Assembly: GCA_022827345.1 (NCBI GenBank)
Contig: JAJDTB010000065.1
Span: 1 to 64,000, forward strand
Length of the DNA: 64,000 bases
DNA from: Gemmatimonadota bacterium
Lineage (GTDB): Bacteria; Gemmatimonadota; Gemmatimonadetes; Longimicrobiales; Gaopeijiaceae
Direction of reading: 5' to 3'
Shown: positions 7,260 to 64,000 of the stretch, in pieces
How the letters are laid out: each line of letters opens with the position of its first letter
How positions within the stretch are numbered: the stretch's first letter is position 1
The notes under the pieces: generated by a model
What the model was told of the DNA's origin: nothing
What the model saw: the letters and a program-made list of their open reading frames with translations, nothing else
Database searches by the model: none
Position numbers and translations under genes: made by a program

Positions 7260-9035
7260 ATGGCGCAGCAGCCCAGCCGATCCGCCACCGGAGTTCGTTT
7301 CGAGCCCGACGAGAGTCCCAATCTGCCCATCACGATCGGACTGGCGCTGCAGTACTGCGTGCTCACGCTGGGGCCGATCGTGCTGACCGTCGCGATCGTG
7401 GTGCGGACGGCCGGCGAGAGCGAGCTCTTCCTGTCGTGGGCGGCGAGCGCGGCGCTGCTCGTGAGCGGGATCACGACGATGGTGCAGGCGAGGCGGGTGG
7501 GGCGGTTCGGCGCGGGGTACATTCTGCTGATGGGGACGTCGGGGGCCTTCATCGCGGTGTCGGTGGCGGCCCTGGCGCAGGGCGGGCCCGGGATGCTGGC
7601 GACGCTGGTCGCGGCCTCGGCGCTCTTCCAGTTCCTGCTGGCGTCGCGGCTGTCGCTGCTGCGGCGGATCATCACGCCGACGGTCGCGGGGACGGTGATC
7701 ATGCTGATCGCGGTGACGGTGATGCCGCTGGTGCTGGACCTGGTCGAGCGGGTGCCGGAGGGGGCGGCCCCGTCGGCCGGGCCGGTGACGGCGTTCGTGA
7801 CGCTGGGCGTGACGATGGTGATCGTGCTCCGCGCGGCCGGGGCGATGCGGCTCTGGGGTCCGGTGATCGGGATCCTCGCGGGGTGCGTGTCCGCCGGGTT
7901 CTTCGGCCTCTTCTCGTGGGACGCGGTGGCGGCGGCGCCGTGGTTCGGCTTGCCGGTCGAGGGCTGGCCGGGGTTCGACTTCGGCTTCGGGCCGGTGTTC
8001 TGGGCGCTGCTGCCGGCGTTCGTGTTCGTGACGCTGGTCGGCGCGATCGAGACGATCGGCGATGCGGTGGCGGTGCAGCGGGTGTCGTGGCGCGACGACC
8101 GGGCGACGGACTTCCGCGGGGTGCAGGGGGCGGTGATGGCCGACGGGCTGGGCAACTTCCTGTCGGGGCTGATGGCCACCGTTCCCAACACGACGTATTC
8201 GAGCAGCGTGTCGATCGTCGAGATCACGGGGGTGGCGGCGCGGCGGGTGGGGATCGGAATCGGGGTCGGATTCTGCGCGCTGGCGCTGCTGCCGAAGGTG
8301 GTGGCGGTGATCCTGTCGATCCCCGACCCGATCATCGGCTCGTATGTGGTGGTGCTGATCGCGATCCTCTTCGTGCTGGGGATGCGCATCGTCGTCGGCG
8401 ACGGCATGAACTACCGGAAGGCGGCCATCGTGGGGGTCTCGTTCTGGGTCGGCTCGGGGTTCCAGAACGGCGGCCTCTTCATCGACCAGATGAGCCCGTT
8501 CTTCGCCGAGATGCTGGGCAACGGCATGACCTCGGGCGGTCTGACGGCGCTCGTGCTGTCGGTGTTCGTGGAGCTGGCCGGGCCGCGGCGCAAGCGGCTG
8601 GTGACGACGCTGGGGGTGGATGCGCTGCCGGAGATCAGCGGGTTCCTGGAGGGCTTCGGCGCACGCGCGGGATGGGACAGCGGCATGGTCCAGCGGGTCC
8701 AGCTGGCTTCGGAGGAGGCGCTGGTGAGCTTGATGGGGGATGGGGGCGCCGGGGGCGCCGAGGGCGACCCGGACGGCCCGGCGCGGCGGCTGCGCCTGAG
8801 CGTGCGCGCGGAGCGGGGTGCGGCGGAGCTGGAGTTCCTTGCCGTGTCAGGTGAAGGGAACCTGGAGGACCGGATGGCGCTGGCCGGAGAGCACTCGGTC
8901 GAGATCGAGGCCGATCACGACTTCTCGCTCCGGCTGCTGCGGCACCTGGCGGCGTCGGTGAGGCACCAGAAGTATCACGACACCGATATCCTCACGGTGC
9001 GGGTGGAGGTGCCGGGAGGTCCCCCTACCGCCTGA
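7260..9035 (+). CDS. NCS2 (uracil/xanthine) permease with C-terminal ATPase-like domain
   Basis: 591 residues. Residues ~20-440 form a nucleobase-cation symporter-2 membrane domain with ~12-14 hydrophobic segments, including LALQYCVLTLGPIVLTVAIV, the TSGAFIAVSVAAL and TPTVAGTVIMLIA segments, FVTLVGAIETIGD and TVPNTTYSSSVSIVEITGVA. The last ~140 residues are cytoplasmic (LPEISGFLEGFGARAGWD, RVQLASEEALVSLM, then LRLLRHLAASVRHQKYHDTD) and resemble an RsbW/HATPase_c_2-type anti-sigma kinase fold, not the usual short NCS2 tail. The N-box Asn of true ATPases is not evident. The start is ATG at 7260 after AAAAGGAAG. A paralogue with the same architecture lies at 51632-53389. Confidence 0.85.
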   Translation: MAQQPSRSATGVRFEPDESPNLPITIGLALQYCVLTLGPIVLTVAIVVRTAGESELFLSWAASAALLVSGITTMVQARRVGRFGAGYILLMGTSGAFIAVSVAALAQGGPGMLATLVAASALFQFLLASRLSLLRRIITPTVAGTVIMLIAVTVMPLVLDLVERVPEGAAPSAGPVTAFVTLGVTMVIVLRAAGAMRLWGPVIGILAGCVSAGFFGLFSWDAVAAAPWFGLPVEGWPGFDFGFGPVFWALLPAFVFVTLVGAIETIGDAVAVQRVSWRDDRATDFRGVQGAVMADGLGNFLSGLMATVPNTTYSSSVSIVEITGVAARRVGIGIGVGFCALALLPKVVAVILSIPDPIIGSYVVVLIAILFVLGMRIVVGDGMNYRKAAIVGVSFWVGSGFQNGGLFIDQMSPFFAEMLGNGMTSGGLTALVLSVFVELAGPRRKRLVTTLGVDALPEISGFLEGFGARAGWDSGMVQRVQLASEEALVSLMGDGGAGGAEGDPDGPARRLRLSVRAERGAAELEFLAVSGEGNLEDRMALAGEHSVEIEADHDFSLRLLRHLAASVRHQKYHDTDILTVRVEVPGGPPTA

Positions 9036-10249: not shown

Positions 10250-10891
10250 ATGAGTGAGTTGCTGCCCGGCGTGAGTGAGCTGCTCCCCGGTCGGGGCAGC
10301 GTCTCGCGGCGTGGTTTCATCAAGGGCGTGATCGCGGCCGGCGCCTCGGTGTCGGCGGTCTCGTGGTTCGCGGTCCCGGCCGGCGCGCCGCAGCAGGGGG
10401 CCGCGCGGGGTGCGCTGGGCCGGCTCGTGACGCTGGAGGTGAACGGGCGCACTCGGCGGGTCGATGTCCTGCCGCAGGAGACGCTCGCCATGACGCTGCG
10501 CTACAAGCTCGGGCTGACCGGGACCAAGCTCGGGTGCGACCGCGCCGAGTGCGGGGCGTGCACGGTGATGATCGACGGGGTGGCGCACTACTCCTGCTCG
10601 ACGCTGACGCAGCGCGTACGAGGGCGCGGAATCACGACGGTCGAGGGGCTGGAGGGCCCCGGCGCCGAGCTTCACCCCGTGCAGAGCGCGTTCATCGAGG
10701 AGCTGGGTCCGCAGTGCGGGTTCTGCACGCCGGGGCAGGTGATGGCGGCCGCGGCGCTGCTGCGCGCCAACCCGAGCCCCACGCGCGAGGAGGCCCGCCG
10801 CGCGATGTCGGGCAATCTCTGCCGCTGCGGCGCCTACGATCACTATCTGAACGGGGTGATGAGGGCGGCCCGGGAGGCCTCCCGTGTCTGA
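10250..10891 (+). CDS. Tat-exported [2Fe-2S] subunit of a molybdenum hydroxylase
   Basis: 213 residues. The N-terminus carries a twin-arginine signal (SVSRRGFIKGVIAAGASVSA). The body is the xanthine dehydrogenase-family Fe-S subunit: first cluster in GCDRAECGACTVMIDG with a further Cys in YSCSTL, second cluster in CGFCTPGQ and NLCRCGAYDHY. It passes electrons between the Mo and FAD subunits. A Tat signal on the small subunit is as in periplasmic PaoABC-type aldehyde oxidoreductases, whose partners are carried across folded. A strong RBS GAGAGGAGG precedes the ATG. The gene overlaps the next by 8 bp. Confidence 0.93.
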   Translation: MSELLPGVSELLPGRGSVSRRGFIKGVIAAGASVSAVSWFAVPAGAPQQGAARGALGRLVTLEVNGRTRRVDVLPQETLAMTLRYKLGLTGTKLGCDRAECGACTVMIDGVAHYSCSTLTQRVRGRGITTVEGLEGPGAELHPVQSAFIEELGPQCGFCTPGQVMAAAALLRANPSPTREEARRAMSGNLCRCGAYDHYLNGVMRAAREASRV

Positions 10892-13283
10892 GCTGATCGG
10901 GAAGGACTTCACCCCCCCGGACGTGGCCGCGAAGGTCACCGGGCGCGCCAAATACGCCGAGGACTTCCGAGCCGACGGGATGCTCTTCTGCCGCCTCATC
11001 ACGAGCCCGATGCCGCACGCCCGAGTGCGCGGGATCGACGCCTCGGAGGCGCTGGCGATGGAGGGCGTCGTCGCCATCCTCACCGCCGACGACGTGCCCG
11101 AGATCCCCGCGCCGGGCAATCCCATCCTCACCAACACCCCGCACTTCGTCGGCGAGCCGGTCGCCGCGCTGGCGGCGGTGGACGAGACGACCGCCCAGGA
11201 CGCCATTAAAAAGGTCAAACTGGACCTCGAGCCGCTGCCCTTTGTGGTCGACCCGCTCGAGAGCCTGCGCCCGGACGGCCCCAACGCCCGCGAAGACGGC
11301 AACACGGTCGAGCGCCGCACGGGAGTCTCCGAGATCAAGTGGACCGACGCCGACTTCGCCGCGGCGGCCGACGGCGAGCTGCCGATGGGCGCGGTCAACA
11401 ACGAGTGGTCCTACGGCGACCTCGAGGCCGGCTTCCGCGACGCGGCGGTCGTGCTCGACGAGAGCTTCGTCACGGCCGGCACCTCGCACCACTCGATGGA
11501 GCCCCGCTCGGCGATGGCCTACTGGCAGAACGGCAAGTGCCATGTCTTCGGATCGAGCCAGAGCCAGAGCGCGACGCTCGGCAGCCTCGCCCGCTACATC
11601 GGCATCGACGTGTCCGACCTGGTCTTCGTGGCCGAGTTCTGCGGGGGCGGGTTCGGGTCGAAGGGCAGCGCGTACCCCGTCATGTCGATCCCGGCGCACA
11701 TGGCGCGGAAGACCGGCCGCCCCGTCATGATGCGCATCAGCCGGGCGGAGGAATACGCGATCGGGTCGGCCCGCGCGGGGTTCCAGGGCCGAATCCGCAT
11801 GGGGTTCCGCGACGACGGCCGCATCACGGCGGCGGACCTCTTCATCGTGCAGGAAAACGGGCCCAACAGCGGCTTTGGCGATCTCGGGAGCGCCGCGGGC
11901 GCCGTCTCCATCGTCTACACACCTCTGGCCATGCGTTTTCGCGGGATCCCGGTGCTCACCAACACGCCCGCGCGGGGTGCGCAACGCGGGCCGGGGCAGA
12001 ACCAGATCGCCTGCGCGGTCGAGCCCATCCTCGACAAGGCGGCGCAGCAGCTCGGGATCGACCGGGTCGCGATCCGCCGCATCAACGCGCCCGTCAGCGA
12101 GTCGCGCTACGGGGGCAATCAGGGTCCGGTGACCAGCGCGCACCTGCGCGAGGCGCTCGATCTGGGAGCCAGCCGGTTCGGATGGGACGAGCGGCTCGCC
12201 CGCAGCGGGGTGCGGCGCGGGTCGAAGGTGACCGGCGTCGCGGTCGGCACGGCCTTCCACTCGGCGGGCTTCAGCGGGATGGACGGGCTGGTGCGAATCA
12301 CGCCCGACGGCAGGCTGCACATCCACTGCGGGGTCGGCAACCTCGGCACATACTCGTATGCCGGTGTCTCACGCGCGGCGGCCGAAGTGCTCGGCTACGA
12401 CTGGGACAACTGCGTGATCGTGCGCGGGGACTCGTCCCGCAATCTGGCCTCGGCCAGCCCGCAGGTGGGCAGCAACACGACCTTCACCATGACGCGCGCC
12501 GCGTACGTGGCGGCGGCCGACGCCGTCGAGAAGCTCAAGGCGATCGCGGCGATGCAGTTCGGCGGCTCACCCGACGACTACGACACCGGCGGCGAGGCCG
12601 TCTTCGCCCGCGCCAACCCGTCGCGCAGACTCAGCTACGCGCAGGCGGCCGAGCGGGCGATCGCGCTCGGCGGGCGCTTCAGCGGCCACGAGATCCCCGA
12701 CGACCTCAACCCCATCACCGCGGCCTCGGTCGCGAACCTGGCGGGCACCGGCCTGATCGGCGCCGCGCGCGACAACCTCCCCCACGAGGGCACCGTTCCC
12801 GCGCTCGCGGCCGGGTTCATCGAGATCGAGCTCGACGTCGAGACCGGCGCCTTCGAGATCGTCGACTACCTGGGCGTCGCCGACTGCGGCACCGTCGTGC
12901 ATCCGCAGGGCCTCGCCGCGCAGGTCAAGGGCGGCGCGGTCATGGGTTTCGGCATGGCCGCGCTCGAGCGCCACGTCTACGACCGTCGCTACGGCGTCGC
13001 CGGAAACATCGGTTTCCACCAGGCCAAGCCCCCGTCCTACCTCGACGTGCCCTCGCACCTCGACTGGGCCGCCACCGACATCGCCGACCCCCAGAATCCC
13101 GTCGGCGCAAAGGGCGTCGGCGAGCCGCTGATGGGCTGTTCCGCGGCCGCGCTCCTCTGCGCCATCTCCGACGCGCTGGGCGGCCACTACTTCAACCGCA
13201 TCCCGGTGGTCCCCGACATGATCGTGAACGTGCTCGCCGAGCAGGCCCAGTCGCACCGCCCGCTCGAGGTCAACACGCAGTGA
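10884..13283 (+). CDS. molybdopterin-binding large subunit, xanthine dehydrogenase family
   Basis: 799 residues, GTG start overlapping the Fe-S gene. N-terminal aldehyde oxidase/XDH a/b hammerhead domain (FTPPDVAAKVTGRAKYAEDF) to ~150, then the Mo-binding domains: FCGGGFGSKG, NTPARGAQRGPGQNQ at the active-site loop, ASPQVGSNTTFT, and the conserved catalytic Glu region VGAKGVGEPLMG near the C-terminus. The loop PARGAQRGPG is neither the AYXCSFR of form I CO dehydrogenase nor a canonical xanthine dehydrogenase signature, so the substrate (aldehyde, purine or other N-heterocycle) cannot be told. It has no Tat signal and presumably rides with the small subunit. Confidence 0.93.
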   Translation: MSELIGKDFTPPDVAAKVTGRAKYAEDFRADGMLFCRLITSPMPHARVRGIDASEALAMEGVVAILTADDVPEIPAPGNPILTNTPHFVGEPVAALAAVDETTAQDAIKKVKLDLEPLPFVVDPLESLRPDGPNAREDGNTVERRTGVSEIKWTDADFAAAADGELPMGAVNNEWSYGDLEAGFRDAAVVLDESFVTAGTSHHSMEPRSAMAYWQNGKCHVFGSSQSQSATLGSLARYIGIDVSDLVFVAEFCGGGFGSKGSAYPVMSIPAHMARKTGRPVMMRISRAEEYAIGSARAGFQGRIRMGFRDDGRITAADLFIVQENGPNSGFGDLGSAAGAVSIVYTPLAMRFRGIPVLTNTPARGAQRGPGQNQIACAVEPILDKAAQQLGIDRVAIRRINAPVSESRYGGNQGPVTSAHLREALDLGASRFGWDERLARSGVRRGSKVTGVAVGTAFHSAGFSGMDGLVRITPDGRLHIHCGVGNLGTYSYAGVSRAAAEVLGYDWDNCVIVRGDSSRNLASASPQVGSNTTFTMTRAAYVAAADAVEKLKAIAAMQFGGSPDDYDTGGEAVFARANPSRRLSYAQAAERAIALGGRFSGHEIPDDLNPITAASVANLAGTGLIGAARDNLPHEGTVPALAAGFIEIELDVETGAFEIVDYLGVADCGTVVHPQGLAAQVKGGAVMGFGMAALERHVYDRRYGVAGNIGFHQAKPPSYLDVPSHLDWAATDIADPQNPVGAKGVGEPLMGCSAAALLCAISDALGGHYFNRIPVVPDMIVNVLAEQAQSHRPLEVNTQ

Positions 13284-13293
13284 GGAGGCGGCC

Positions 13294-14307
13294 ATGATGA
13301 ACGACATGATGACCCGTTTCGAGCTCCTGCAGCCGACCGACCTGCCGGGCGCGCTCGATCTGCTGGCCCGCCACGGCGCCGACGCGTGGCCGCTCGCGGG
13401 GGGCTACGACAGCTTCGACTGGTTCAAGAACCGCGGCAAGGAGCCCGCGGTCGTGATCGACCTGGAGGGGGTCGAGGAGTTGAGGGGGGTGAGAGAGGTA
13501 CAGGGCGGCGATGACGCCGGCGGCAGCGGTGGCATCGAAATCGGCGCCATGACCACGCTGGCGACTATTGAGAGCGACCCGATCATCCGGTCACGATATG
13601 CCCTCCTGGCCGATGCGGCGGCCGACGTCGCGAGCCCCCAGATCCGCAACGCCGGAACGATCGGCGGCAACGTCTGCCAGGACACGCGCTGCTGGTACTA
13701 CCGCTACGGCATGGCCTGCTACCGCGCCGGCGGCAACACCTGCTACGCGGGCGCGCCGGGCGCCATGAACCGCGAACACGCGATCTTCGGCGCCGACCGC
13801 TGCGTGGCGGTCACGCCATCGGACGTCGCCCCGGCGCTGGTGGCGCTCGACGCCGGGATGGTAATGCGGAGCGTGCGCCGCGAAAGGGTCGTCCCCGCGG
13901 CGGAGTTCTTCATGCCGCCCGGCGTCGACATCACCCGCATGACCGTGCTGGAGCCCGGCGAGCTTCTCACCGCGATCCGCATCCCGGGCCGCTGGGCGGG
14001 CGCCGACTTCCGTTTCGAGAAGGTCGCCGACCGGAAGACCTGGGACTTCGCGCTGGTCAGCGTGGCCGCGGCGGTGCGGGTGAACGGCGGCGGCGCCATC
14101 GAGGACGGCCGCATCGTCGCCGGCGCCGTCGAGTGCGTCCCGCGCCGCCTGACCGAGGTCGAGGCGTTCATCCGCGGCCGTCCCCGCGACGAGGAGACGG
14201 CGGAGGCAGCCGGCGAATTGGCGGTCAGCGGCGCCGATCCCCTCGACTACAACCACTTCAAGATCCCGCTGCTCCGCAACCTGGTGAAGCGGGCGGTGCG
14301 GGGGTGA
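13294..14307 (+). CDS. FAD-binding subunit (CoxM/XdhB family) of the molybdenum hydroxylase
   Basis: 337 residues. The FAD-binding PCMH-type domain has LPGALDLLARHGADAWPLAG and GYDSFDWFKNR at the first FAD loop, and RNAGTIGGNVCQDTRCWYYR at the second. A CO dehydrogenase flavoprotein C-terminal domain follows (FEKVADRKTWDFALVSVAAA). The Cys-rich stretch CWYYRYGMACYRAGGNTCYA is noteworthy because some members bind an extra [4Fe-4S] cluster in this region. Third gene of the operon. Its TGA overlaps the ATG of the HEPN gene (TGATG), so the toxin-antitoxin pair is read from the same transcript. Confidence 0.92.
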   Translation: MMNDMMTRFELLQPTDLPGALDLLARHGADAWPLAGGYDSFDWFKNRGKEPAVVIDLEGVEELRGVREVQGGDDAGGSGGIEIGAMTTLATIESDPIIRSRYALLADAAADVASPQIRNAGTIGGNVCQDTRCWYYRYGMACYRAGGNTCYAGAPGAMNREHAIFGADRCVAVTPSDVAPALVALDAGMVMRSVRRERVVPAAEFFMPPGVDITRMTVLEPGELLTAIRIPGRWAGADFRFEKVADRKTWDFALVSVAAAVRVNGGGAIEDGRIVAGAVECVPRRLTEVEAFIRGRPRDEETAEAAGELAVSGADPLDYNHFKIPLLRNLVKRAVRG

Positions 14308-51631: not shown

Positions 51632-53389
51632 ATGGCATCCGAGCCAGCCGGAAGCGCCCACGGCGTCCGCTACGAACCCGACGAGAAGCCGCCCTGGCCG
51701 CTGGCCGCGGGGCTCGCGCTGCAGTACTCCGTGCTGGCGGTCGGGGGCGTGGTGCTGACGGTGGCGATCGTCCTTCGCAGCGCGGAAAGCAGCGCGGGAT
51801 ACCTGGCGTGGGGGGCATTCGGCGCGCTTCTGGTGAGCGGGGTGGCCACGATCGTGCAGGCGTGGCGCGTGGGGCGCCTGGGGTCCGGCTACGTGCTCAT
51901 GATGGGGACGTCGGGTGCGTTCATCGCGGTGTCGGTGGCGGCGCTCCAGCAGGGGGGACCGGGGCTGCTGGCCACGCTGATCATCGTCTCGTCGCTCTTC
52001 CAGTTCCTGCTCGCGGGGCGGCTGTCGATTCTGCGGCGGATTCTCACGCCGACGGTGGCGGGGACGGTGATCATGCTGATCGCGGTCAACGTGATGCCGT
52101 TCCTCTTCGACTTCATGGACAACGTACCGGAGGGGAGCGCGCCGCTGGCCGCGCCCGTGACCGTGATGGCGACGCTGGTGGTGACGCTGGCGATCATGCT
52201 CAAGTTCACCGGGCCGGTGCGGCTGTGGGGACCGTTGATCGGGATCGTCGCGGGGTGCATCGCGGCGGCGTCCTTCGGGCTGATGGATGGCGGACCGGTG
52301 AGGGAAGCCATGTGGGTCGGCGTGCCGGTGGCGGGCTGGCCGGGACTGGGGTTCGACTTCGGGCCGGCGTTCTGGGCGATTCTGCCCGCCTACACCTTCG
52401 TGACGCTGGTGGGCGCGATCGAGACGATCGGGGACGCGGTGGGCATTCAGCGGGTGTCGTGGCGCGAGCGGCGGGCCACCGACTACCGGGCGGTGCAGGG
52501 AGCGGTGGCGGCGGACGGCTTCGGCAATCTGCTCTCGGGGCTCTTCGCGACGGTTCCGAACACGACCTACTCGAGCAGCGTGTCGGTCGTGGAGATCACG
52601 GGGATCGCGTCGCGCCGGGTGGGGGCGTGCATCGGCCTGATCTTCTGCGTGCTGGCATTCGTGCCGAAGGTTACGCAGGTGCTCCTGATCATCCCCGATC
52701 CGGTGATCGGCGCCTACGCCATGGTCATCATCGCCGTGCTGTTCATGCTCGGCACCCGGATCGTGCTGCAGGACGGAATGGACTACCGGAAGGCCACGGT
52801 GGTCGGGTTCTCGTTCTGGGTCGGGGTCGGCTTCCAGAGCGGCCAGATACCCACCGAAGGCCTGACGCCCTTCCTGCAGCAACTGCTCGACAACGGGATG
52901 ACGTCGGGAGGCCTGACCGCGCTCGTGCTGACGGCGTTCATGGAGCTGACGGGGCCGCGGCGCATGCGCATGCAGACGGAGTTGGAGGTCGCTTCGCTGC
53001 CGAAGATTCACAGGTTCCTGGAGGGATTTGCCGGTCGGCGGGGGTTGGGGGATGATATTGCGGGCCGGTTGGCGCACGCCGCCGAAGAGACGCTGCTGCT
53101 CCTGATCGGGGAGGGGGCGCAGGAGGCCGAGGGTGCCGAAGCGACTGGCAAGCGCCGGCTGCGGCTGACGGCTCGGACCGAATCGGGCGGCGCGGAGCTG
53201 GAGTTCCTGGCCGCGGGCAGCGAGGGCAACATCGAGGATCACCTGGCCGTGGTCGGCACCCACGCGGTCGACGCCACGGAAGAGCACGAGTTCTCGCTGC
53301 GGCTGCTGCGCCACCTTGCGACCTCGGTGCAACACCACAAGTACGAGGACATCGATGTGGTGACCGTGCGGGTTGACCCGGCGGCCTAG
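51632..53389 (+). CDS. second NCS2 permease with C-terminal ATPase-like domain
   Basis: 585 residues, a paralogue of the 7260-9035 protein along its whole length, including the extension. Membrane part: LALQYSVLAVGGVVLTVAIV, GTSGAFIAVSVAAL, TPTVAGTVIMLIAVNVMPFL, FVTLVGAIETIGDAVGIQRV, NTTYSSSVSVVEITGIAS. The C-terminal domain runs LPKIHRFLEGFAGRRGLGDD, AHAAEETLLLLIGEG, then LRLLRHLATSVQHHKYEDID. Conservation of the extension in both copies argues that it works. The spacer before it has a GGGGA...TCCCC inverted repeat (about 51517-51535) next to TTGACA. Confidence 0.87.
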   Translation: MASEPAGSAHGVRYEPDEKPPWPLAAGLALQYSVLAVGGVVLTVAIVLRSAESSAGYLAWGAFGALLVSGVATIVQAWRVGRLGSGYVLMMGTSGAFIAVSVAALQQGGPGLLATLIIVSSLFQFLLAGRLSILRRILTPTVAGTVIMLIAVNVMPFLFDFMDNVPEGSAPLAAPVTVMATLVVTLAIMLKFTGPVRLWGPLIGIVAGCIAAASFGLMDGGPVREAMWVGVPVAGWPGLGFDFGPAFWAILPAYTFVTLVGAIETIGDAVGIQRVSWRERRATDYRAVQGAVAADGFGNLLSGLFATVPNTTYSSSVSVVEITGIASRRVGACIGLIFCVLAFVPKVTQVLLIIPDPVIGAYAMVIIAVLFMLGTRIVLQDGMDYRKATVVGFSFWVGVGFQSGQIPTEGLTPFLQQLLDNGMTSGGLTALVLTAFMELTGPRRMRMQTELEVASLPKIHRFLEGFAGRRGLGDDIAGRLAHAAEETLLLLIGEGAQEAEGAEATGKRRLRLTARTESGGAELEFLAAGSEGNIEDHLAVVGTHAVDATEEHEFSLRLLRHLATSVQHHKYEDIDVVTVRVDPAA

Positions 53390-54602: not shown

Positions 54603-57600
54603 TCAACTGCCGGGATCGATCCAGTACCGCCGGCGCTCGAACGGGTAGCCGGGGAGCCAGATCCGCCTCCGCTGTTCGCCGGCGAACAGACCCCCGAACG
54701 TGATCGGGAGGCCGGCCTCGTAGGCCCTCGCCACTGACTCGGCGAAGTCGGTGTGCTTTTCGATCGGCGTCTCCGGCCAGCTGTCAAGCCGGGCCGGGCC
54801 CGCCGTCGCACCCGCGCCGATCTCCAGCACGAGCCGCACATTCAGTTCCGCAAGCCGGGCCTTGCAGCGGCCCGGCCGCGGCCGGGCCCGAATCCGTCTC
54901 AGCCAAATGGCGGGATCGGGGGCCTGGCCGGAGTCGATGGCATGGCTCTCGGCCAGGTTGAGCAGGGTCAGCGAGGGGGCGCGTGTGTCTATTCCGGCGA
55001 TGGTGGCTTCCACTTCGGCGAGAGGATCCTGCCTGGCGGCGGATGCACCGCCACCCGCGGGCGCGGCCGCCGCCATGCGCATCCTGGGCTGGGCCATCGC
55101 GGTGCCCCTTGCCGCGGCGATGCGCAATCCGTCGTCCAGGCTGAAGACGCCTGCGGCCCAGGCCGCGGACAGCTCTCCGGCGCCGTCTCCGACCGCCACC
55201 GCGGGCCCAACGCCAACGCTTGCCCAGAGCGCCGTCATCGCGCACTGAACGGAGTACAACGCCGGCTGTGCCCACTCCGGGTCCCGCAGTCTTCCGGCCG
55301 CGCTTTCCCGGCCGAACATCACGTCCAGCAGCGACGCCCCTTCGCGTTCCTCCCGGATCACGGCGTCGCAACGGTCCAGAACGGCTCGCACAACCGGCTC
55401 GCGATCGTACAGCTGCTGCCCCATGCCGGTCTGCTCGCTGCCTTCGGCGGTGTAGATGCAGGCGACTCTGGGTGAGGTGCCGGTCCCGCGATCGTAGGCA
55501 GCTGAGACGTCGACAGCCGCCCCGGCGACCGCGCGCAAGCCGTCGCGCAGGGAATCCAGATCGCGGAACACGACCCCTGACCGATGAGCGAAGTGGCTCC
55601 TCCCAACCCCGGCGGTCCAGGCCAGGTCGTCCAGACGTGGCTCGGGAGGCGCACCGTTTTCGCCCTCGCGGACGGTGTCCAGCCACACGAGATACCGCTC
55701 TGCCAGCTCGCTCAGGGCCGTTGGCGACTTGCCGGAGAGCGGGAGCAAGCGCGTTTCGCGCGGACTGAGCGCGACCGTGGAGTCGGCGTGCGTTTCCGCC
55801 ACCTGCTCCGGCAGGCTGACCTCGACGACCTGGGCCGCACCTGTGGGCCGGGCGCCGTCCATCCCCGGGGGCCCTTCGACGACCACATGCGCGTTGGCCC
55901 CTGACAGCCCGAACGAGCTCACCGCGGCGCGCGGAGGACGATCCGAGTGCTCGGGCCACGCCGTGGCCTCGGCAGTCACCCGGACCGGGATGCCGTCCCA
56001 GTCGACGTGGGGGTTCGGGTTGCGGAAGTGCAGCTGCCCGGGAATGCGGCCCTCGTTCATGGCGAGGATGGTCTTGATCAGGCCGGCGACCCCCGACGCC
56101 GCCTCCAGGTGGCCGATGTTCGTCTTGACCGAGCCGATGAGCAGTGGGCTCTTCGGGTCACGCTCGCGCCCGTAGACCGCCGCCGCGGCCTGAATCTCGA
56201 TCGGGTCTCCCAGATCCGACCCGACGCTGTTGGCCTCCAGGTAGTCGACCTCCGCGGGCGAGACACCCGCCCGGGACAACGCCTCCTCGATCACCCGTTC
56301 CTGCGCCGGTCCGTTCGGAACCGTGAGCGCGGCGGTCGACCCATTGTGATTCACCGCGGAACCCCGGACGACTGCCCAGATTCGGTCGCGGTCGGTCCTC
56401 GCGTCGTCCAGGCGCTTGAGCACCAGCACCCCGCAGCCCTCGCCCCGCACGAATCCGTCCGCGGCCGCATCGAAGGAGCTGCAGCGCCCGGTCGTCGAGA
56501 GCATTCCCGCCTGGTTCATGAACTCAGTGATGTCGGCGGACACGACCGCGTGCACTCCGCCGACGAGCGCCGCGTCGACCTCGCCCCGCTGCAGGGCGGA
56601 CACCGCCTGGTGAACCGCGGCCAGAGAAGAGGCGCATGCCAGGTCCACCGGCACGGACGGGCCGTTGAGTCCCAGCGCGAAGGAAACCCGGCCCGCGGTC
56701 ACGCTGATGGTGCCGCCGAGATACCCGAGCACCAGACCCGCGGCCAGGGCCAGGTCCCTGTAATCCCCGTCGCCGACCCCGGTGAACACGCCCGTGCGGC
56801 TGCCGCGCAGCGTCTCCGGGTCGACGCCCGCGTCCTCGAGGGCGTGCCAGGTCGTTTCGAGCAGCAGCCGCTGCCGCGGGTCCATCGACCGTGCCTCGAG
56901 GGGATGGATGCCGAAGAACCTGGCATCGAACTTGTCGAGGTCCTCGAGGTAGCCGCCCGGATGCCGGGCGTCACCGGTGGACTCGGGGTCGCCGTCCACG
57001 CCGTGCCACGGACCCGGATCGCGCCGTGCGTCGGTGACCATGTCCGCCCCGGCATCGAGCAGTCGCCAGTAGGCGTCGAGATCGGGCGCGCCGGGAAGGC
57101 GGCACGCCATTCCCACGATGGCGATGCCGTCGTCTCCGGGCAGGGCCGGTGCTTCGGGTGCGGAAACGGGTTCGGGCTCCGCTTGGGGAAAGGACGCCGC
57201 GCCGTCCTCCTCGAGCTCCTCGGCCAGGTGGTCGGCCAGGGTCACGATGTCCGGGTAGTCGAAGACCAGGGTATTGGGCGCGGTGTAGGTCCCCGTGAAC
57301 GCCCGGTTGAGCCGGTTGCGCAGCTCAACGGCCATCAGGGAGTCCATCCCCAGGTCGAAGAAGCCGACCGTGGGCGCCGGGGCCGATGGCAGCCGGAGAA
57401 CGGCCTGCACCTCGCCCTGGAGGAACGAAACCAGCACGTTTTCGCGCTCTCCCGACGGCGCCTGCCGCAGCCGGGTCATGACGTCCTGCGACGAGGCCGC
57501 CGCCTCGGCTTCGGTTTCCGCAGTGGCGGCGAGCAGGTCGTCGAGCAGGGGCGGCCGCTCTTCCACGGCCTCTTCGAACACGGCCCAGTCCATCGCCATT

Positions 57601-60600
57601 ACAACGGCCGAGGTCGCGTCTTGGCGCACCAGCCGGTCGAATGCCCGAATGCCCTGCTGCGGGGTGAACCAGCGGCCTCCGAGCGCCGAGCGGCGCTGGT
57701 CGATGCGCTCGCGCTGCTCCGCCGCCTCGCCGATCTCCGACCAGGCCCCCCAGGCGATGGCCTGCCCGGCGAGTCCCAGCGCCCGGCGGTGGCCGGCGAG
57801 CTGGTCCAGGAAGGCGTTGGCCGCGCCGTGGTTCGTCTGCCCGGGGTTGCCCATCACGCCGACGCGGCTGGAGAAGAGGACGAACATGTCCAGGTCGCGG
57901 TCCAGCGTTGCGCGGTGGAGGTGCCATGCGCCGAGGATCTTGGGCGAAAGGACCCGCTCGAACCGCTCCCAGCTCTGGTTGGTGAGCGCCCCGTCCGAGA
58001 GCACTCCCACGCTGTGAACGACGCCGCCGAGGGGAGGCAGATCCCGGTCGATGCGGGTCAGCATCCGGTCGATCGCGCCGGTGTCGGTCACGTCCGCCAG
58101 CTCTACCTCGACGGTCACGCCCCGGTCGCGCAGTGCCCGGATGGTCTCTTCGGCGCCGGCGTCCGGTCCGCGGCGTCCGTTCAGCACGATCGTCCCCGCG
58201 CCCCGCTCTGCCATCCACTCGGCCACGGCGCATCCGATCCCGCCGAGGCCGCCTGTCACGAGATAGGTCCGGTCCTGCCGCAGGCGGCCGCCGGTGATGG
58301 GCGGAGCCGAAACCGCGATCTTGCCCAGATGTCGCGCGGATCGCATGAAGCTCAGCGCGGACCCGGCCTCGGCCAGCGGCCAGCGGCTGTGCACGATCGG
58401 TTCGAGCTCGCCGGTGGAGATGCGCGCCATGATGTCCCGCAGGACCCGCCCCGCCCACTCCGGGTCCGTCTTCTTCACCACGTCCAGCTCGAGGATGTGG
58501 TAGGGCACGTCGGGACGCACCGCCGCCATCTCCTCGTAGCTCAGGATGTCCCGCCTCGCCATTTCCACGAACCGGCCGCCTTGCTTGAGGCAGGCCAGGC
58601 TGGCGTCGATGTAGCCCTCGCTCGTCAGGCTGTTGAGCACCACGTCCACGCCTTCGCCGTTCGTCGCCTCCATGATCTCTTCGCCGAAGGCCGTCGTGCG
58701 GCTGTCGAAGATGTGCCTGACGCCCAGTGACCTGAGGTAGTCCTGCTTGGGCGCGCTCGCGGTGGCGAAGACCTCCGCTCCCGCCGCGTGCACCAGCTGG
58801 ACCGCGGCGAGGCCCACGCCCCCGGCGGCGGCGTGCACGAGTACGCGCTCGCCGGGTTCCAGGCCGGTGAAGTCGAAGGAAAGCGCCGCCGAAACGAACG
58901 CGCTCGGGATCGTCGCGAGCCCGGTCGCCGAGATTCCCCCGGGTGCGGGCGCGACCAGCTCCTCGTGCGTGATCATGTCCGGCCCGAACGCGCCGAACCC
59001 CATTCCGACCACATGATCGCCGACGGAAACGTTGGATACCTCGGCGCCGACCTCGACGATGCGCCCGCACATCTCACGGCCCAGCAGTCCCTCTTCGATG
59101 AACCCGAGCGACCGGAAAACGTCCCAGAAGTTCAGTCCGGCGGCCTCGACTTCGACGCGAACCTCCCGCGGATCGAGCGCGCGCACGGGAAGCTTCAGCA
59201 CGAACGGCCTGTCGAACACGCCGTCCGGATCGGGGGCGAGCACCCAGCTCGTTTCGTCTGGGAGGGTCAGCCGCGGCGCACCGTCCTCGGTTCGTACCAG
59301 GCGCGCCACCGAGCGGCGGCCGCGACGGTACGCGATGTGATTCTCGAGGTCGGGGTACATCAGTTCGTTCGCCAGGTCCGGTACCGGTGCCATCGGGGCG
59401 GGGTCGAGGTCGAGCATTCGTGGCTTGAGGTGCGCCGCCTCGCGCTCCACGCCCTTGCCGAAGCCCCACAGTGCCGCGCCGGCCAGGCTGCCTCCGCGCT
59501 CGCGTTCCAGCACCTGCGCGCCGCTTGTCACGAGCCACAATCCCATTTCGGGAGTCGCGCCCGCGTCGCCCACGCCCTGAACCATGGCCAGCGCGGACTC
59601 GCCAGCGAGTGTCACGTCCCGCCACATCTCTTCGGTGGTGGCCTGTTCTCCGGTGCCGTCCAGAGCCACGAGGTGCACGACTCCGCAGAAGGGAACATCG
59701 GCGGGCAGGTCGTCAATGAGCGACTGCCACGCCTCTCGCCGCTGCATCTCGATGGCCGTGGTCACGCCGGGTGCGGTCGTAACCCGCCCCTCGGCATCCG
59801 CTCCCTTGGGGCACGCCAGCACCACGGTCTGATTGCGAGCTCGCAGGTCCCCGGCCAACTGCGCCGCCAGCCCGGCCGAGCGACCGCTCGCGCCGCCGGC
59901 CACCACCCACGCACCCGCGGGCTCGGTCACCACCGAGGGCCCCTGCGCCACGATCACGCCCTTGTCGGGCACGGTGACGGTGTCGGCCTCGTCCACGCCC
60001 AGCACCTCCACCTCGCCGAAACCGGCGTTGCCGAGCGCCTGCCTCCAGACCGCCGGGCTCGCGAGCGCGTGACGGGGGCGGTAGTCGTCGGCGAACCTCC
60101 ACCACCCGTCGAGCTGCCCGAAGGTCAGGTCCATCCAGCCCAGGCCGCTGAGGTTCTCGAGTGCGACCAGCTGTCCGGAGGGCGCGAGGAGGCGGCGGCA
60201 GTGGTCCAGCGTCTCGTCCAGTGAGCGCGTCGCGTGCAGGACGTTGGAGGCGATGATGAGGTCGTAGCCGTGCAGGTCGAAACCCTGTCCGACGGGATCC
60301 TTCTCGATGTCGAGCGGCCGGTACTCGATGCATCCGCCGCCGTCGCCGAAGCGCGCTTCGGCCTCCGAGAAGAAGCCGGCGGAGATGTCGGTGTACACGT
60401 AATCGAACCCGCCCTTCGGGAGGATCGGCAGGATGGAAGCGGTCGCCGATCCGGTCCCGGCGCCGACCTCGATCACGCGCAGGCGCCTTCCCCGGGGCAG
60501 CGAATCGACCAGGGCGCGGACCGCCACCTCCAGCATGCGGTTCGCGGCGCGCGCGACCGGAGCCTTGAGGTAGAGGTCGGCGGCGGTGGGTTCACCGCTG

Positions 60601-63600
60601 CTGAAGAGGAGGGTCAGGGGGTCTTCGCGGCCGTGCAGGACGTCGGGCAGCGCCGCGGCCGAGCGCCGGAACAGTCCGGTCTCGGTCTGGCCGTGGGCGT
60701 ACCGCTCCAGCATGACGGCGGCGTGCCCGTCGAGATCGGAGGGCAGATCCGGGGGCCATGGATCCTTCGAGCCCAACTCGACGACGAACGTGCCGTCCTC
60801 CTTCTCGCGGAGCGCACCCGCCCGGGCTGCCATCTCGAGGATTCTCCTGAAGAGGCGGCTGTGCTCGGCCAGGACGCCGAGCCGTTCCCTCAACTCCTCG
60901 GAATCGACGACCGCACCCGGGATGCGCTGCCAGCCCAGCCGGTCCAGCGTCCCCAGCGCGTAGGACCACGACCACTGCTCCAGATCCCGCAGCAGCGAGT
61001 TCCGGTCGTCATGGTCGACCCCTGACTCGGCCAGGTACTCCGACCAGGTCTGCGCCCCGGCCTTCACCGCCCCCGGAGCCGGGAAGAAGTCCGCGGACGG
61101 CATGCCGTCGGCAAGCGCGCATTCCCGCCATACCACCTCGTAGAGGAGGTCGCTGACGCCTTCGCCCGCCGAGAGCAGCGAGGCGCGGGTCGCACGCTTC
61201 ACCGTGTACCCGCCGATGATCCCCAGCAACAGCCCATCGGGGTCGTAGATGCGCATTTCGCCGGTGAGGACCTCGGGGGGCTCGCCCGGCTGCGATTCCG
61301 CCTCCCGGGAGGCCTCGCTCAGGCGCACATGGCAGAACACCCGCTCCGGCAGCTGGCCGGTCGTGAACGAGAGCCGCTCCCAGCCGAAGGGCAGGAAGGT
61401 GATGCCGCCATGGGGTCCGTCCAGGTCGCGCGCCGAGCCCATGACCTGAAAGCACCCGTCCAGGACCAGTGGGTGGAGGTCGAGCCCGCTTCCCCCGGCC
61501 CCCTCGGGCAGCCTTACCTCGCCCAACGCCTCTCCCGGACCGGACCAGAGGCCGCGCAATGTCTGGAAGAACGGACCCAGACCGACCTTGCCTTCCGCGC
61601 GGGCCCGGTAGTACCCCGCCACATCGGCCGGCGAGAGCCTCGCCTTGATCCCCTCCAGGTCGATTCGCTCCGCGGGATCGCCAGCCACGGCGCCCAGCGG
61701 CAACCGGCCCTCCACGTGCACTGTCCAATCCCCGCCGCTCCCCCGGCTGTAGATCCGGAAGCGCCGCGCCGACACCTGATCCGGCGCGTCGAGGACGAAC
61801 TGGATCGTCCGGCTCTCGTCGCCGTCTTCGGCGCTCTTCGGGAAAACCAGCGCGCTGTGCAGCTGCATGTCCTCCACGATCACCGGCCCGCCGCTCAGCA
61901 GGGCGGACGCCGATGTGGCCATGGCCCCGTACAGCGCTCCGGGCACGACGACCTGGCCGAACACCCGGTGGTCTTCGAGCCACTGCGGGTCCGCCACGAA
62001 AAGCTCGGACTCGAAGGCGACCTCGCCGCCAGCCGAGTCGTGACGAGTGCCGAGCAGGGGGTGCCCGGTGCCTCCGCGACGGCGTTTCGGCGCATCGAGC
62101 CAGTAGTGAGACCGCTGGAACGGGTAGCCCGGCAGCGAGATCCGCCTGCGCGATTCCCCGGCAAAGAGGGCCTCGAAACGGATCGGGAGCCCGGCCTCAT
62201 ATGCGCCGGCGACCGCAGGTGCGAAGGCGCCGATTCCTGCTCCGGCACCCTCTGAGGGCGGCCCGGCCAGAGTCCCCTGGACGCGCGGCGCCGAAGCGCG
62301 GGACGATTCCGGCCACGCGGCGAGCGCCATCGGCAACAGCACCGAACGCGGGCCGATCTCGATGACCATGTCCACCCCGGAGTCGGCCAGGGTCCGGATC
62401 CCGCTCGCGAACGCGACCTTCTCGCGGGCGTGCCGCCTCCAGTAGGCCCCGTCCAGCCGCTGTCCGGACTCGACCGCGCGGCCCGTCAGGTTGCTGACGA
62501 AGGTCACGTCCCGCTGCTCGATGGCGACGCCGTCCAGGGACGCTTCGAGGTCGTCCAGGATCGGGTCGGCCAGCGCGCTGTGGAATGCCTTCGCCGTGTT
62601 GAGGCGAACCACGCGGACGCTCTCCGAATCGAAGCGGTCCGAGAGCGCCTGGATGCCCTCCGCCGGGCCACTCACCACCTGGTGGGTGCCGTTATCCCCC
62701 GAAATGCTGACCGGGACCCCGGAAGACGCCGCGTTGAAGGCCTCGACCTCGGCCGCCACCCTCTCCGGCGGCGCGAACACCGCGGCCATGGCACCCGCCT
62801 TCATGCCGGACATCAGCGACCCCCGCGCGCACGCAAAGCGCATTCCGTCCTCGAGGCTGAATACCCCCGCAGCTTGCGCCGCGGCGATCTCCCCGACGCT
62901 GTGGCCCAGCACTACATCCGGGCGCACGCCCACGCTCGACCAGAGCGCCGTCAGCGCGCACTCCAGCGCGTAGAGGGCGGGCTGCTCCCAGGCCGTGTCG
63001 CCCAGGTCACCCACCGCCCCGGCCCTGCCGAACATGACGTCGAGCAGGGATGTTCCCCGCACTTCCCGGAACACCTCTTCGCAGCGATCCAGCACGGCCC
63101 GCGCCACGGGCTCGGCCTCGTAGAGGGCACGACCCATGCCGGCCCACTGGCTCCCCTGACCGGTGTACGCAAACGCCACCCGGGAAGACGCCCGCGCCGC
63201 TTCGTCGCCGGTCCGCTCGGCCGCGGCCTCCAGCCCCTCCCGCAGCGACGCGGCGTCGCGAAACACGACCCCGGCGCGGTGATCGAAGTGGCGCCGGCCC
63301 ACGCCCGCCGTCCAGGCCGCGTCGGCAAGCAGCGATTCAGGCGCGATCCCGGCGGTGGAAGCGTCGGCATCCAGTTCGTCGAGCCAAGCCAGGTACCGGC
63401 CAGCCAATTCACGGAGCGCCGAGCCGGACCTTGCCGACAAGGGCAGGATGCGCGCGCCGCGCGGTTGAGCCGCACCGTCCAACGGCATGTCCGTCCCGGT
63501 GGGAAGCGAAACGGCGACAGCCTGTGGGGCTCCCAGTGGCTTGCGGCCATCAGCGCGATACTCCTCCACCACCGCGTGCGCGTTCGTGCCCGATATCCCG

Positions 63601-64000
63601 AAGCAGTTGATGCCGGCGATGCGCGGCCCTCCGGTCCGGTCGGGCCACTCCATCGTGCTCGTGGTCACCTGGAGCGGCAGGCTGTCCCAGTCGATCGCCG
63701 GGTTGGGGTTCATGAAGTGCAGGTGCTTCGGAATCACCCCGCGCCGCACCGCCAGCGCCGCCTTGATCAGGCTGACCACCCCCGCCGCCGACTCCAGGTG
63801 ACCCACATTGGTCTTGACGGACCCGATCAGGAGCGGCCGGTCCGCCACGCGGCCCCGGCAGTAGATGCTGGACACGGCGTCGATCTCGATCGGATCGCCC
63901 ACCTCCGTACCGGTTCCGTGCGCCTCGACGTAGTCCACCTCCAGCGGACCGATCCCGGCGGCGGCCAGCGCGTCCTCCATCACTTCTTCGAGCGCGGGCG
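54603..64000 (-). CDS. type I polyketide synthase, N-terminus beyond the window
   Basis: At least 3130 residues, open to the window edge inside a KS. Approximate domains by position: KS1 C-terminal half 64000-63550 (EAHGTGTEVGDPIE, KTNVGHLES); AT1 63180-62250 (GQGSQWAGMG, GHSVGEIAAAQ, KAFHS: malonyl-type); DH 62075-61180 (DHRVFGQVVVP, LDGCFQ); C-methyltransferase 60620-59990 (VIEVGAGTGSATAS); ER 59260-58310 (HAAAGGVGLAAVQL); KR 58275-57730 (YLVTGGLGGIG; the usual catalytic Tyr in GQxNY is His, GQTNHGAANAF); ACP 57430-57200 (GMDSLMAVELRNRL); KS2 57135-55870 (DLACASSL but EANSVGSD for EAHGTGT); AT2 55470-54790 (GDGAGE for GHSxGE, HAFH region deleted). The end is PFERRRYWIDPGS; no TE, no last ACP. 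Module one should add a fully reduced, methyl-branched unit. Confidence 0.93.
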   Translation of the reverse strand, partial: PALEEVMEDALAAAGIGPLEVDYVEAHGTGTEVGDPIEIDAVSSIYCRGRVADRPLLIGSVKTNVGHLESAAGVVSLIKAALAVRRGVIPKHLHFMNPNPAIDWDSLPLQVTTSTMEWPDRTGGPRIAGINCFGISGTNAHAVVEEYRADGRKPLGAPQAVAVSLPTGTDMPLDGAAQPRGARILPLSARSGSALRELAGRYLAWLDELDADASTAGIAPESLLADAAWTAGVGRRHFDHRAGVVFRDAASLREGLEAAAERTGDEAARASSRVAFAYTGQGSQWAGMGRALYEAEPVARAVLDRCEEVFREVRGTSLLDVMFGRAGAVGDLGDTAWEQPALYALECALTALWSSVGVRPDVVLGHSVGEIAAAQAAGVFSLEDGMRFACARGSLMSGMKAGAMAAVFAPPERVAAEVEAFNAASSGVPVSISGDNGTHQVVSGPAEGIQALSDRFDSESVRVVRLNTAKAFHSALADPILDDLEASLDGVAIEQRDVTFVSNLTGRAVESGQRLDGAYWRRHAREKVAFASGIRTLADSGVDMVIEIGPRSVLLPMALAAWPESSRASAPRVQGTLAGPPSEGAGAGIGAFAPAVAGAYEAGLPIRFEALFAGESRRRISLPGYPFQRSHYWLDAPKRRRGGTGHPLLGTRHDSAGGEVAFESELFVADPQWLEDHRVFGQVVVPGALYGAMATSASALLSGGPVIVEDMQLHSALVFPKSAEDGDESRTIQFVLDAPDQVSARRFRIYSRGSGGDWTVHVEGRLPLGAVAGDPAERIDLEGIKARLSPADVAGYYRARAEGKVGLGPFFQTLRGLWSGPGEALGEVRLPEGAGGSGLDLHPLVLDGCFQVMGSARDLDGPHGGITFLPFGWERLSFTTGQLPERVFCHVRLSEASREAESQPGEPPEVLTGEMRIYDPDGLLLGIIGGYTVKRATRASLLSAGEGVSDLLYEVVWRECALADGMPSADFFPAPGAVKAGAQTWSEYLAESGVDHDDRNSLLRDLEQWSWSYALGTLDRLGWQRIPGAVVDSEELRERLGVLAEHSRLFRRILEMAARAGALREKEDGTFVVELGSKDPWPPDLPSDLDGHAAVMLERYAHGQTETGLFRRSAAALPDVLHGREDPLTLLFSSGEPTAADLYLKAPVARAANRMLEVAVRALVDSLPRGRRLRVIEVGAGTGSATASILPILPKGGFDYVYTDISAGFFSEAEARFGDGGGCIEYRPLDIEKDPVGQGFDLHGYDLIIASNVLHATRSLDETLDHCRRLLAPSGQLVALENLSGLGWMDLTFGQLDGWWRFADDYRPRHALASPAVWRQALGNAGFGEVEVLGVDEADTVTVPDKGVIVAQGPSVVTEPAGAWVVAGGASGRSAGLAAQLAGDLRARNQTVVLACPKGADAEGRVTTAPGVTTAIEMQRREAWQSLIDDLPADVPFCGVVHLVALDGTGEQATTEEMWRDVTLAGESALAMVQGVGDAGATPEMGLWLVTSGAQVLERERGGSLAGAALWGFGKGVEREAAHLKPRMLDLDPAPMAPVPDLANELMYPDLENHIAYRRGRRSVARLVRTEDGAPRLTLPDETSWVLAPDPDGVFDRPFVLKLPVRALDPREVRVEVEAAGLNFWDVFRSLGFIEEGLLGREMCGRIVEVGAEVSNVSVGDHVVGMGFGAFGPDMITHEELVAPAPGGISATGLATIPSAFVSAALSFDFTGLEPGERVLVHAAAGGVGLAAVQLVHAAGAEVFATASAPKQDYLRSLGVRHIFDSRTTAFGEEIMEATNGEGVDVVLNSLTSEGYIDASLACLKQGGRFVEMARRDILSYEEMAAVRPDVPYHILELDVVKKTDPEWAGRVLRDIMARISTGELEPIVHSRWPLAEAGSALSFMRSARHLGKIAVSAPPITGGRLRQDRTYLVTGGLGGIGCAVAEWMAERGAGTIVLNGRRGPDAGAEETIRALRDRGVTVEVELADVTDTGAIDRMLTRIDRDLPPLGGVVHSVGVLSDGALTNQSWERFERVLSPKILGAWHLHRATLDRDLDMFVLFSSRVGVMGNPGQTNHGAANAFLDQLAGHRRALGLAGQAIAWGAWSEIGEAAEQRERIDQRRSALGGRWFTPQQGIRAFDRLVRQDATSAVVMAMDWAVFEEAVEERPPLLDDLLAATAETEAEAAASSQDVMTRLRQAPSGERENVLVSFLQGEVQAVLRLPSAPAPTVGFFDLGMDSLMAVELRNRLNRAFTGTYTAPNTLVFDYPDIVTLADHLAEELEEDGAASFPQAEPEPVSAPEAPALPGDDGIAIVGMACRLPGAPDLDAYWRLLDAGADMVTDARRDPGPWHGVDGDPESTGDARHPGGYLEDLDKFDARFFGIHPLEARSMDPRQRLLLETTWHALEDAGVDPETLRGSRTGVFTGVGDGDYRDLALAAGLVLGYLGGTISVTAGRVSFALGLNGPSVPVDLACASSLAAVHQAVSALQRGEVDAALVGGVHAVVSADITEFMNQAGMLSTTGRCSSFDAAADGFVRGEGCGVLVLKRLDDARTDRDRIWAVVRGSAVNHNGSTAALTVPNGPAQERVIEEALSRAGVSPAEVDYLEANSVGSDLGDPIEIQAAAAVYGRERDPKSPLLIGSVKTNIGHLEAASGVAGLIKTILAMNEGRIPGQLHFRNPNPHVDWDGIPVRVTAEATAWPEHSDRPPRAAVSSFGLSGANAHVVVEGPPGMDGARPTGAAQVVEVSLPEQVAETHADSTVALSPRETRLLPLSGKSPTALSELAERYLVWLDTVREGENGAPPEPRLDDLAWTAGVGRSHFAHRSGVVFRDLDSLRDGLRAVAGAAVDVSAAYDRGTGTSPRVACIYTAEGSEQTGMGQQLYDREPVVRAVLDRCDAVIREEREGASLLDVMFGRESAAGRLRDPEWAQPALYSVQCAMTALWASVGVGPAVAVGDGAGELSAAWAAGVFSLDDGLRIAAARGTAMAQPRMRMAAAAPAGGGASAARQDPLAEVEATIAGIDTRAPSLTLLNLAESHAIDSGQAPDPAIWLRRIRARPRPGRCKARLAELNVRLVLEIGAGATAGPARLDSWPETPIEKHTDFAESVARAYEAGLPITFGGLFAGEQRRRIWLPGYPFERRRYWIDPGS

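Follow-up and report, generated by a model that had tools for sequence, protein, structure and literature searches.

Locus and domain architecture

The window analyzed here, a stretch of 64,000 nucleotides from the genome of a Gemmatimonadota bacterium, carries a 591-residue open reading frame (P0001) on its forward strand at 7260-9035, with an ATG at 7260 and a stop codon at 9033-9035; start and length are kept in its orthologs. The gene caller picked this frame, and a reverse-strand gene at 7260-9035 was discarded because a stop interrupts the frame. Residues 26-400 (7335-8459, forward strand) match the Xan_ur_permease family (Pfam PF00860) with 151 bits against a cut-off of 27 (E = 4e-44), and the protein scores below the cut-offs of the NCS2-superfamily and pbuX models of NCBIfam. 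According to the predicted models, the transmembrane (TM) region of this NCS2/SLC23 carrier ends with its last helix at about residue 440, and a separate soluble domain occupies residues 444-585 (8589-9014, forward strand). The first-pass annotation had noticed a soluble extension behind the NCS2 part, and its full-length conservation in eight carriers of the same genome, its presence in congeneric genomes and purifying selection argue that the extension is not due to chance. A second fused paralog of 585 residues, 63% identical to P0001, lies in the window at 51632-53389 on the forward strand.

The genes around P0001 encode a DUF1684 protein, a 206-residue protein without a Pfam match on the reverse strand, an NHL-repeat protein, also on the reverse strand, whose end overlaps the end of the carrier gene, and then a molybdenum hydroxylase. 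As these flanking genes are unrelated, an operon of P0001 with its neighbors in the window was rejected. The molybdenum hydroxylase set downstream of the NHL-repeat gene comprises three genes for 2Fe-2S, MoCo-binding and FAD subunits (10250-14307, forward strand). Towards the other end of the window, a very large type I polyketide synthase (PKS) frame with AT, DH, methyltransferase, ER, KR, ACP and KS domains runs on the reverse strand from 54603 to 63980 and past the window end (L138:1-4869), and fused carrier paralogs flank it on both sides (window 51632 and C73:66541).

Fold of the C-terminal domain

Two AlphaFold models were built, one of full-length P0001 (mean pLDDT 75.5) and one of the tail alone (pLDDT 79.1, pTM 0.75), with sequences from the window and from fetched loci as the only inputs. 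The lid region is of low confidence in the full-length model (pLDDT below 50 at residues 532-556). In the predicted tail a strand is followed by two long helices, two strands, a weak lid helix, a further helix and two strands, which is the strand-helix order of GHKL domains and matches the HATPase fold of the RsbW/SpoIIAB type. When the tail model was compared with known structures by Foldseek, 19 chains were found at E <= 0.001, all 19 of them UsfX, RsbW or SpoIIAB (best E = 7.7e-8). Structural alignments to these proteins in VIA-align span 103-122 residues, with Z-scores of 14.4 for UsfX, 14.2 for RsbW and 12.6-12.8 for SpoIIAB, while histidine kinases reach about 7. The structure prediction thus gave neither an unrelated fold nor disorder, and the segments on which the first-pass annotation had based its RsbW-like HATPase_c_2 assignment (FLEGFGARAGWD, LASEEAL and LRLLRHLAASV) fall, in this order, within helix 1, helix 2 (which holds the N-box) and helix 3 of the model.

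At the level of sequence, HATPase_c_2 (PF13581) hits P0001 residues 454-569 below threshold, with E = 0.052 for the full-length protein and 0.0018 for the tail alone, and at 18.7 bits the gathering cut-off of 27.4 is not reached. Matches to this model occur in 23 of 40 family tails (best E = 1.9e-6 for a tail and 4.9e-5 for a full-length protein). With an intact RsbW of a Nitrospinota locus as query, phmmer retrieves a carrier from Acidimicrobiia (E = 4e-5), and hhalign aligns the tail profile with three intact RsbW proteins over 70 columns (E = 2e-5), so that E486 falls on the N-box Glu and S490 on the N-box Asn. A search with the profile of the C-terminal domain against PDB sequences gave no meaningful match, so that homology of the tail rests on the fold, Pfam and hhalign. 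Taken together, the predicted structure strongly supports placing the tail with the anti-sigma kinase fold of RsbW, SpoIIAB and UsfX.

Loss of the ATP-site motifs and selection on the tail

The ATP site was surveyed in 103 family sequences. The N-box equivalent of P0001 (residues 479-491; 8694-8732, forward strand) contains R479, E485 and E486, all invariant in the family, and E486 is the N-box Glu. The N-box Asn is found in none of the 103 sequences, position 490 being S (as in P0001), T, L, V, I, A or M. Likewise, the DxGxG of the G1 box is absent from all 103, and its equivalent (residues 530-538; 8847-8873, forward strand) carries the invariant N534 and D537 instead. The GxG of the G2 box occurs in one of 103, a match by chance; the corresponding G2-box/helix 3 region of P0001 (residues 552-572; 8913-8975, forward strand) lacks it and has the conserved pattern S556-L-R558-x-L560-x-H562 ... 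H569-x-x-Y572, in which L560, H562 and H569 never vary and S556, L557, R558 and Y572 are almost invariant. In comparisons of orthologs, the median dN/dS is 0.23 in the tail versus 0.15 in the carrier part, which indicates purifying selection.

While the domain had been described as ATPase-like, its ATPase signature is gone and another set of invariant residues is in place. To judge from its sequence, the tail is a degenerate, probably non-catalytic domain under selection, and with the ATP-site motifs gone it would probably serve as a docking or control handle rather than as an enzyme. The term ATPase should be dropped from the description of P0001.

Carrier part and substrate

By fold, the carrier part matches UapA, UraA and SVCT1 (Foldseek), and the family profile matches UapA with E = 1e-26. 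Canonical NAT carriers are defined by three motifs, Gln-His in TM1, E-x-x-G-[D/H/G] in TM8 and [QEP]-N-x-G-x4-T-[GRK] in TM10, and the nucleobase is contacted by the TM10 Gln/Glu and the TM8 Glu (PMC5972032). P0001 retains the TM8 motif, including the substrate Glu of UapA and UraA, as E264-T-I-G-D268 (8049-8063, forward strand), and E264 is kept in 99 of 103 family sequences. At the position of the TM10 signature (8202-8231, forward strand) it reads S-S-V-S-I-V-E-I-T-G, that is S-S-V-S-x4-T-G; across the family the Asn position is Ser in 97 of 103 sequences, and Q, E or P at the first position occurs in 0 of 103. In TM1, Gln-His is changed to Gln-Tyr, with Tyr, Leu, Phe or Ala in other aligned members. 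In three paralogs of the same genome the TM8 Glu is replaced by Arg or Lys and the TM10 motif is broken; one of these, on contig C67, belongs to the clade linked to STAS genes (see below).

P0001 thus shares fold, sequence and the TM8 ExxGD with the SLC23 carriers UapA, UraA and SVCT1, but differs from them by the lost TM10 signature, the changed TM1 Gln-His and the roughly 145-residue C-terminal domain added in the family. For the label of nucleobase permease given by the first-pass annotation, this means that the NCS2 carrier stands, while the nucleobase part is weak as two of the three NAT motifs are missing. Together with the Arg or Lys at TM8 in the three paralogs, this leaves a nucleobase substrate unproven; the substrate of P0001 need not be a nucleobase, and the protein is better described without this word. 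A class III aminotransferase gene (L138:5169-6539) overlaps by 4 bases the start of a fused carrier paralog (L138:6536-8281), and the aminotransferase cluster is present in seven loci of the set. This is a possible hint at an amino-compound substrate.

Distribution of the fusion

The genome of P0001 encodes eight full-length fused carriers including P0001 itself, and the other seven are 45-63% identical to it, tail included. A ninth place carries the tail alone. The only other NCS2 protein of this genome, a 449-residue frame on contig C47 whose start may be AzgA-like, lacks the tail. All 22 congeneric genomes contain matches, with 4-12 in each. When the carrier part alone was used as query, the near-full-length relatives of at least 43% identity among the matches listed had frames of at least 538 residues, with one exception of 459 residues, and the next carrier among them, at 29% identity, was of tail-less length. 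This near-constant co-occurrence indicates that the tail and this branch of carriers go together.

A wider survey of NCS2 proteins with this extension returned a large family with patchy relatives in several phyla. Within a sample of the phylum the tail was found in 32 of 200 genomes and 7 of 93 genera, and in the class of an Acidimicrobiia locus in 9 of 198 genomes. By their titles, the 80 named relatives appear to be metagenome-assembled genomes. The jk18x series of names comes from Ircinia (PMC9531527), the 277c series from Petrosia ficiformis (PMC8941161), and Palauibacter rhopaloidicola is sponge-derived by its name; for the remaining series a sponge origin is suggested by the naming, with MEX2-MAG12 not placed. 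The family therefore appears to occur mostly in symbionts of marine sponges, and a restriction to sponges is likely. In a quick tree Acidimicrobiia, Spirochaetia and, weakly, Nitrospinota each fell into a single clade, and the paralogs of the window genome were scattered. Some record titles look misassigned, which makes the count of phyla approximate: L078, titled Gammaproteobacteria, and L025, titled in or near Gammaproteobacteria, have the same match coordinates as G113 and G106, respectively, of the family of the window. Transfer across phyla was thus not read from titles, and titles inside Gemmatimonadota clades were not counted. The fusion was not described in the open-licence literature searched.

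The domain also occurs without a carrier. A 172-residue protein (G000:C26:70593-71108; L108:4594-5112) combines one predicted TM stretch with the same RsbW-like domain. It has relatives in 13 of 15 genomes tested of the genus, its own included, and three or four of those genomes hold a second, adjacent copy. The spread of this single-TM form speaks for the domain being a module that works at the membrane.

Gene context of the C67-type clade

STAS or swf-type polyketide genes lie beside some carriers of one paralog clade (C67-type). On contig C67 of the window genome the order is aminomethyltransferase, STAS protein, reversed dehydrogenase and carrier (C67:101549). In a locus of the same genus (L175), the carrier is followed on one strand by a STAS gene at a distance of 321 bp, then, after 93 bp, by a small helical protein, and by a PKS-like frame. 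In six genomes of another family the small helical protein comes directly after the carrier, and two of these examined further (L177 and L180) have a PKS-like frame downstream, preceded in L177 by a radical-SAM gene. These neighbors in L177-L182 were rejected as STAS proteins since they comprise only the small helical extension without a STAS core. The small protein (L175:5877-6233, L177:8611-9003 and relatives) has no convincing Pfam match. In the window genome it is found fused to STAS (L132:10996-11832 and 1617-2282), which links carrier, small protein and STAS. The STAS proteins of these loci keep the Ser of the S-x-G-L site, the usual STAS Ser site.

No STAS or small-protein neighbor was found outside the C67-type clade, and across the 80 named loci (L018-L097) none lies within 3 kb of the carrier. 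Within the clade itself, the majority of the congeneric loci fetched, some on short contigs, also lack both, so the STAS link is not general. Intact RsbW and STAS genes are present in the window genome. In four Nitrospinota loci (L071, L076, L081 and L091), genes for a response regulator and an RsbU-like phosphatase lie about 1.2 kb downstream of the carrier, followed in L071 by an intact RsbW; L094, a short contig, has only response regulators nearby. This proximity is suggestive only, as a reverse gene lies between where called and all loci belong to one lineage.

The order on C67 equals that reported for ORF14-ORF17 on a fosmid from a symbiont of Plakortis simplex, in the part of the description that covers these genes (PMC3908369). 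There, a permease (ORF17), an anti-anti-sigma factor (ORF18), ORF19 and the PKS SwfA follow one another; in that part ORF17 is SupE-like and called only "Permease", and its 557 residues are similar in length to P0001. The PKS frames near the carriers of L175 and L177 add to the likeness, and the small helical protein takes the position that the POR_0546-like ORF19 has in the published cluster. The permease of swf/sup clusters is probably a member of the same family, and length and context suggest an RsbW-like tail on SupE (ABE03914) and ORF17.

Proposed role and alternatives

The architecture of P0001 is real and unusual, and its fold had been correctly named. Like RsbW, SpoIIAB and UsfX, the tail has the HATPase_c_2 fold, strand order and N-box Glu, and in part of one clade STAS genes adjoin the carriers; unlike them it is fused to an NCS2 carrier, has lost its ATP motifs and has an invariant set of its own. 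A second comparison is offered by SulP/SLC26 transporters, which combine the SLC23 fold with a regulatory STAS domain (PMC6497670). In these, too, a carrier of the related 7+7 TM type bears at its C-terminus a domain that belongs to the anti-sigma partner-switch toolkit (PMC6497670, PMC8256260). The two differ in that SLC26 carries the STAS side and P0001 the RsbW side, with no STAS domain fused to it, and their sequence families are distinct. The single-TM version and the STAS neighbors in one paralog clade favor a regulatory role, with no tie to the purine status that had been suggested.

We tentatively propose, with slightly less than an even chance of being right as a whole, that P0001 is a divergent NCS2/SLC23-fold carrier whose catalytically dead RsbW/SpoIIAB-type domain is a regulatory handle for STAS docking. 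The predicted fold, the degenerate site, the conserved residues, the near-constant fusion, the single-TM form and the STAS neighbors in part of one clade support this model; from them we infer location, pairing, docking, an effect on transport and reset. The domain would probably be cytoplasmic, since NCS2 carriers end inside and basic residues follow the last helix, and the pseudo-RsbW domains would probably be paired in the carrier dimer. There they may bind a STAS (anti-anti-sigma) protein, whose binding or release would change carrier activity, and a separate intact RsbW kinase might reset the switch by phosphorylating the STAS protein. No STAS gene adjoins P0001, whose own partner would come from a gene elsewhere. 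Such an arrangement would mirror SulP/SLC26, where the STAS domain sits on the related 7+7 TM fold.

Alternatively, the former ATP pocket could have been remodeled to bind a small molecule, possibly a nucleotide or the transported substrate, and could gate transport allosterically without a protein partner. Several invariant polar residues at the N-box, G1 and G2 equivalents could line such a pocket (E485/E486, N534, D537, S556, R558, H562, H569 and Y572), and all eight fused carriers of the genome have the domain; however, part of the invariant set is located in helix 3 and the last strands, where it might just as well form a protein interface, and the STAS neighbors in one clade point to a protein partner, so that we consider a ligand sensor unlikely. 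Some members might instead have given up transport and become solute sensors, with the RsbW-like domain passing the signal on to STAS proteins and sigma factors. Such transceptors would fit the eight copies in one genome and the three paralogs, the STAS-linked C67 protein among them, in which the TM8 Glu has become Arg or Lys and the TM10 motif is broken, yet P0001 and most relatives keep the TM8 ExxGD (E264 in 99 of 103) and the conserved TM region, which makes this a distinctly improbable account.

Dimers are known both for RsbW-type domains and for NCS2 carriers, and the tail might do no more than help the protein to dimerize, remain stable or be targeted to the membrane, a function also suggested for some SLC26 STAS domains. 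This explains poorly the invariant polar residues and the independent single-TM version, and we rate it marginally lower still. The literal reading of the first-pass annotation, in which a nucleobase permease carries a working kinase or ATPase domain, has the kinase fold and the invariant N-box Glu in its favor, but is very hard to reconcile with N-box Asn and G1 motifs absent from all 103 sequences, a G2 motif absent save for one chance match, and two of three NAT motifs missing from the carrier half.

Returning to the docking model, it can be extended to a partner switch borne by a transporter, in which STAS proteins dock onto the pseudo-RsbW domain of an NCS2-fold carrier and either the stress switch controls uptake or the carrier reports to the stress switch. 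This switch would be spread over sponge symbionts from several phyla and, within one clade, would accompany swf-type polyketide clusters. In this full form the idea is a possibility on the unlikely side. What emerges is a recognizable family, often multicopy within a genome and perhaps confined to sponge symbionts, which also offers a domain identity for the tail of the "permease" found next to swf clusters. If the model is true, the family would be the mirror image of the SulP/SLC26-STAS proteins, related carrier folds having taken up opposite halves of the same bacterial switch, and such a pair would make the gating of transport by these domains testable by comparison.
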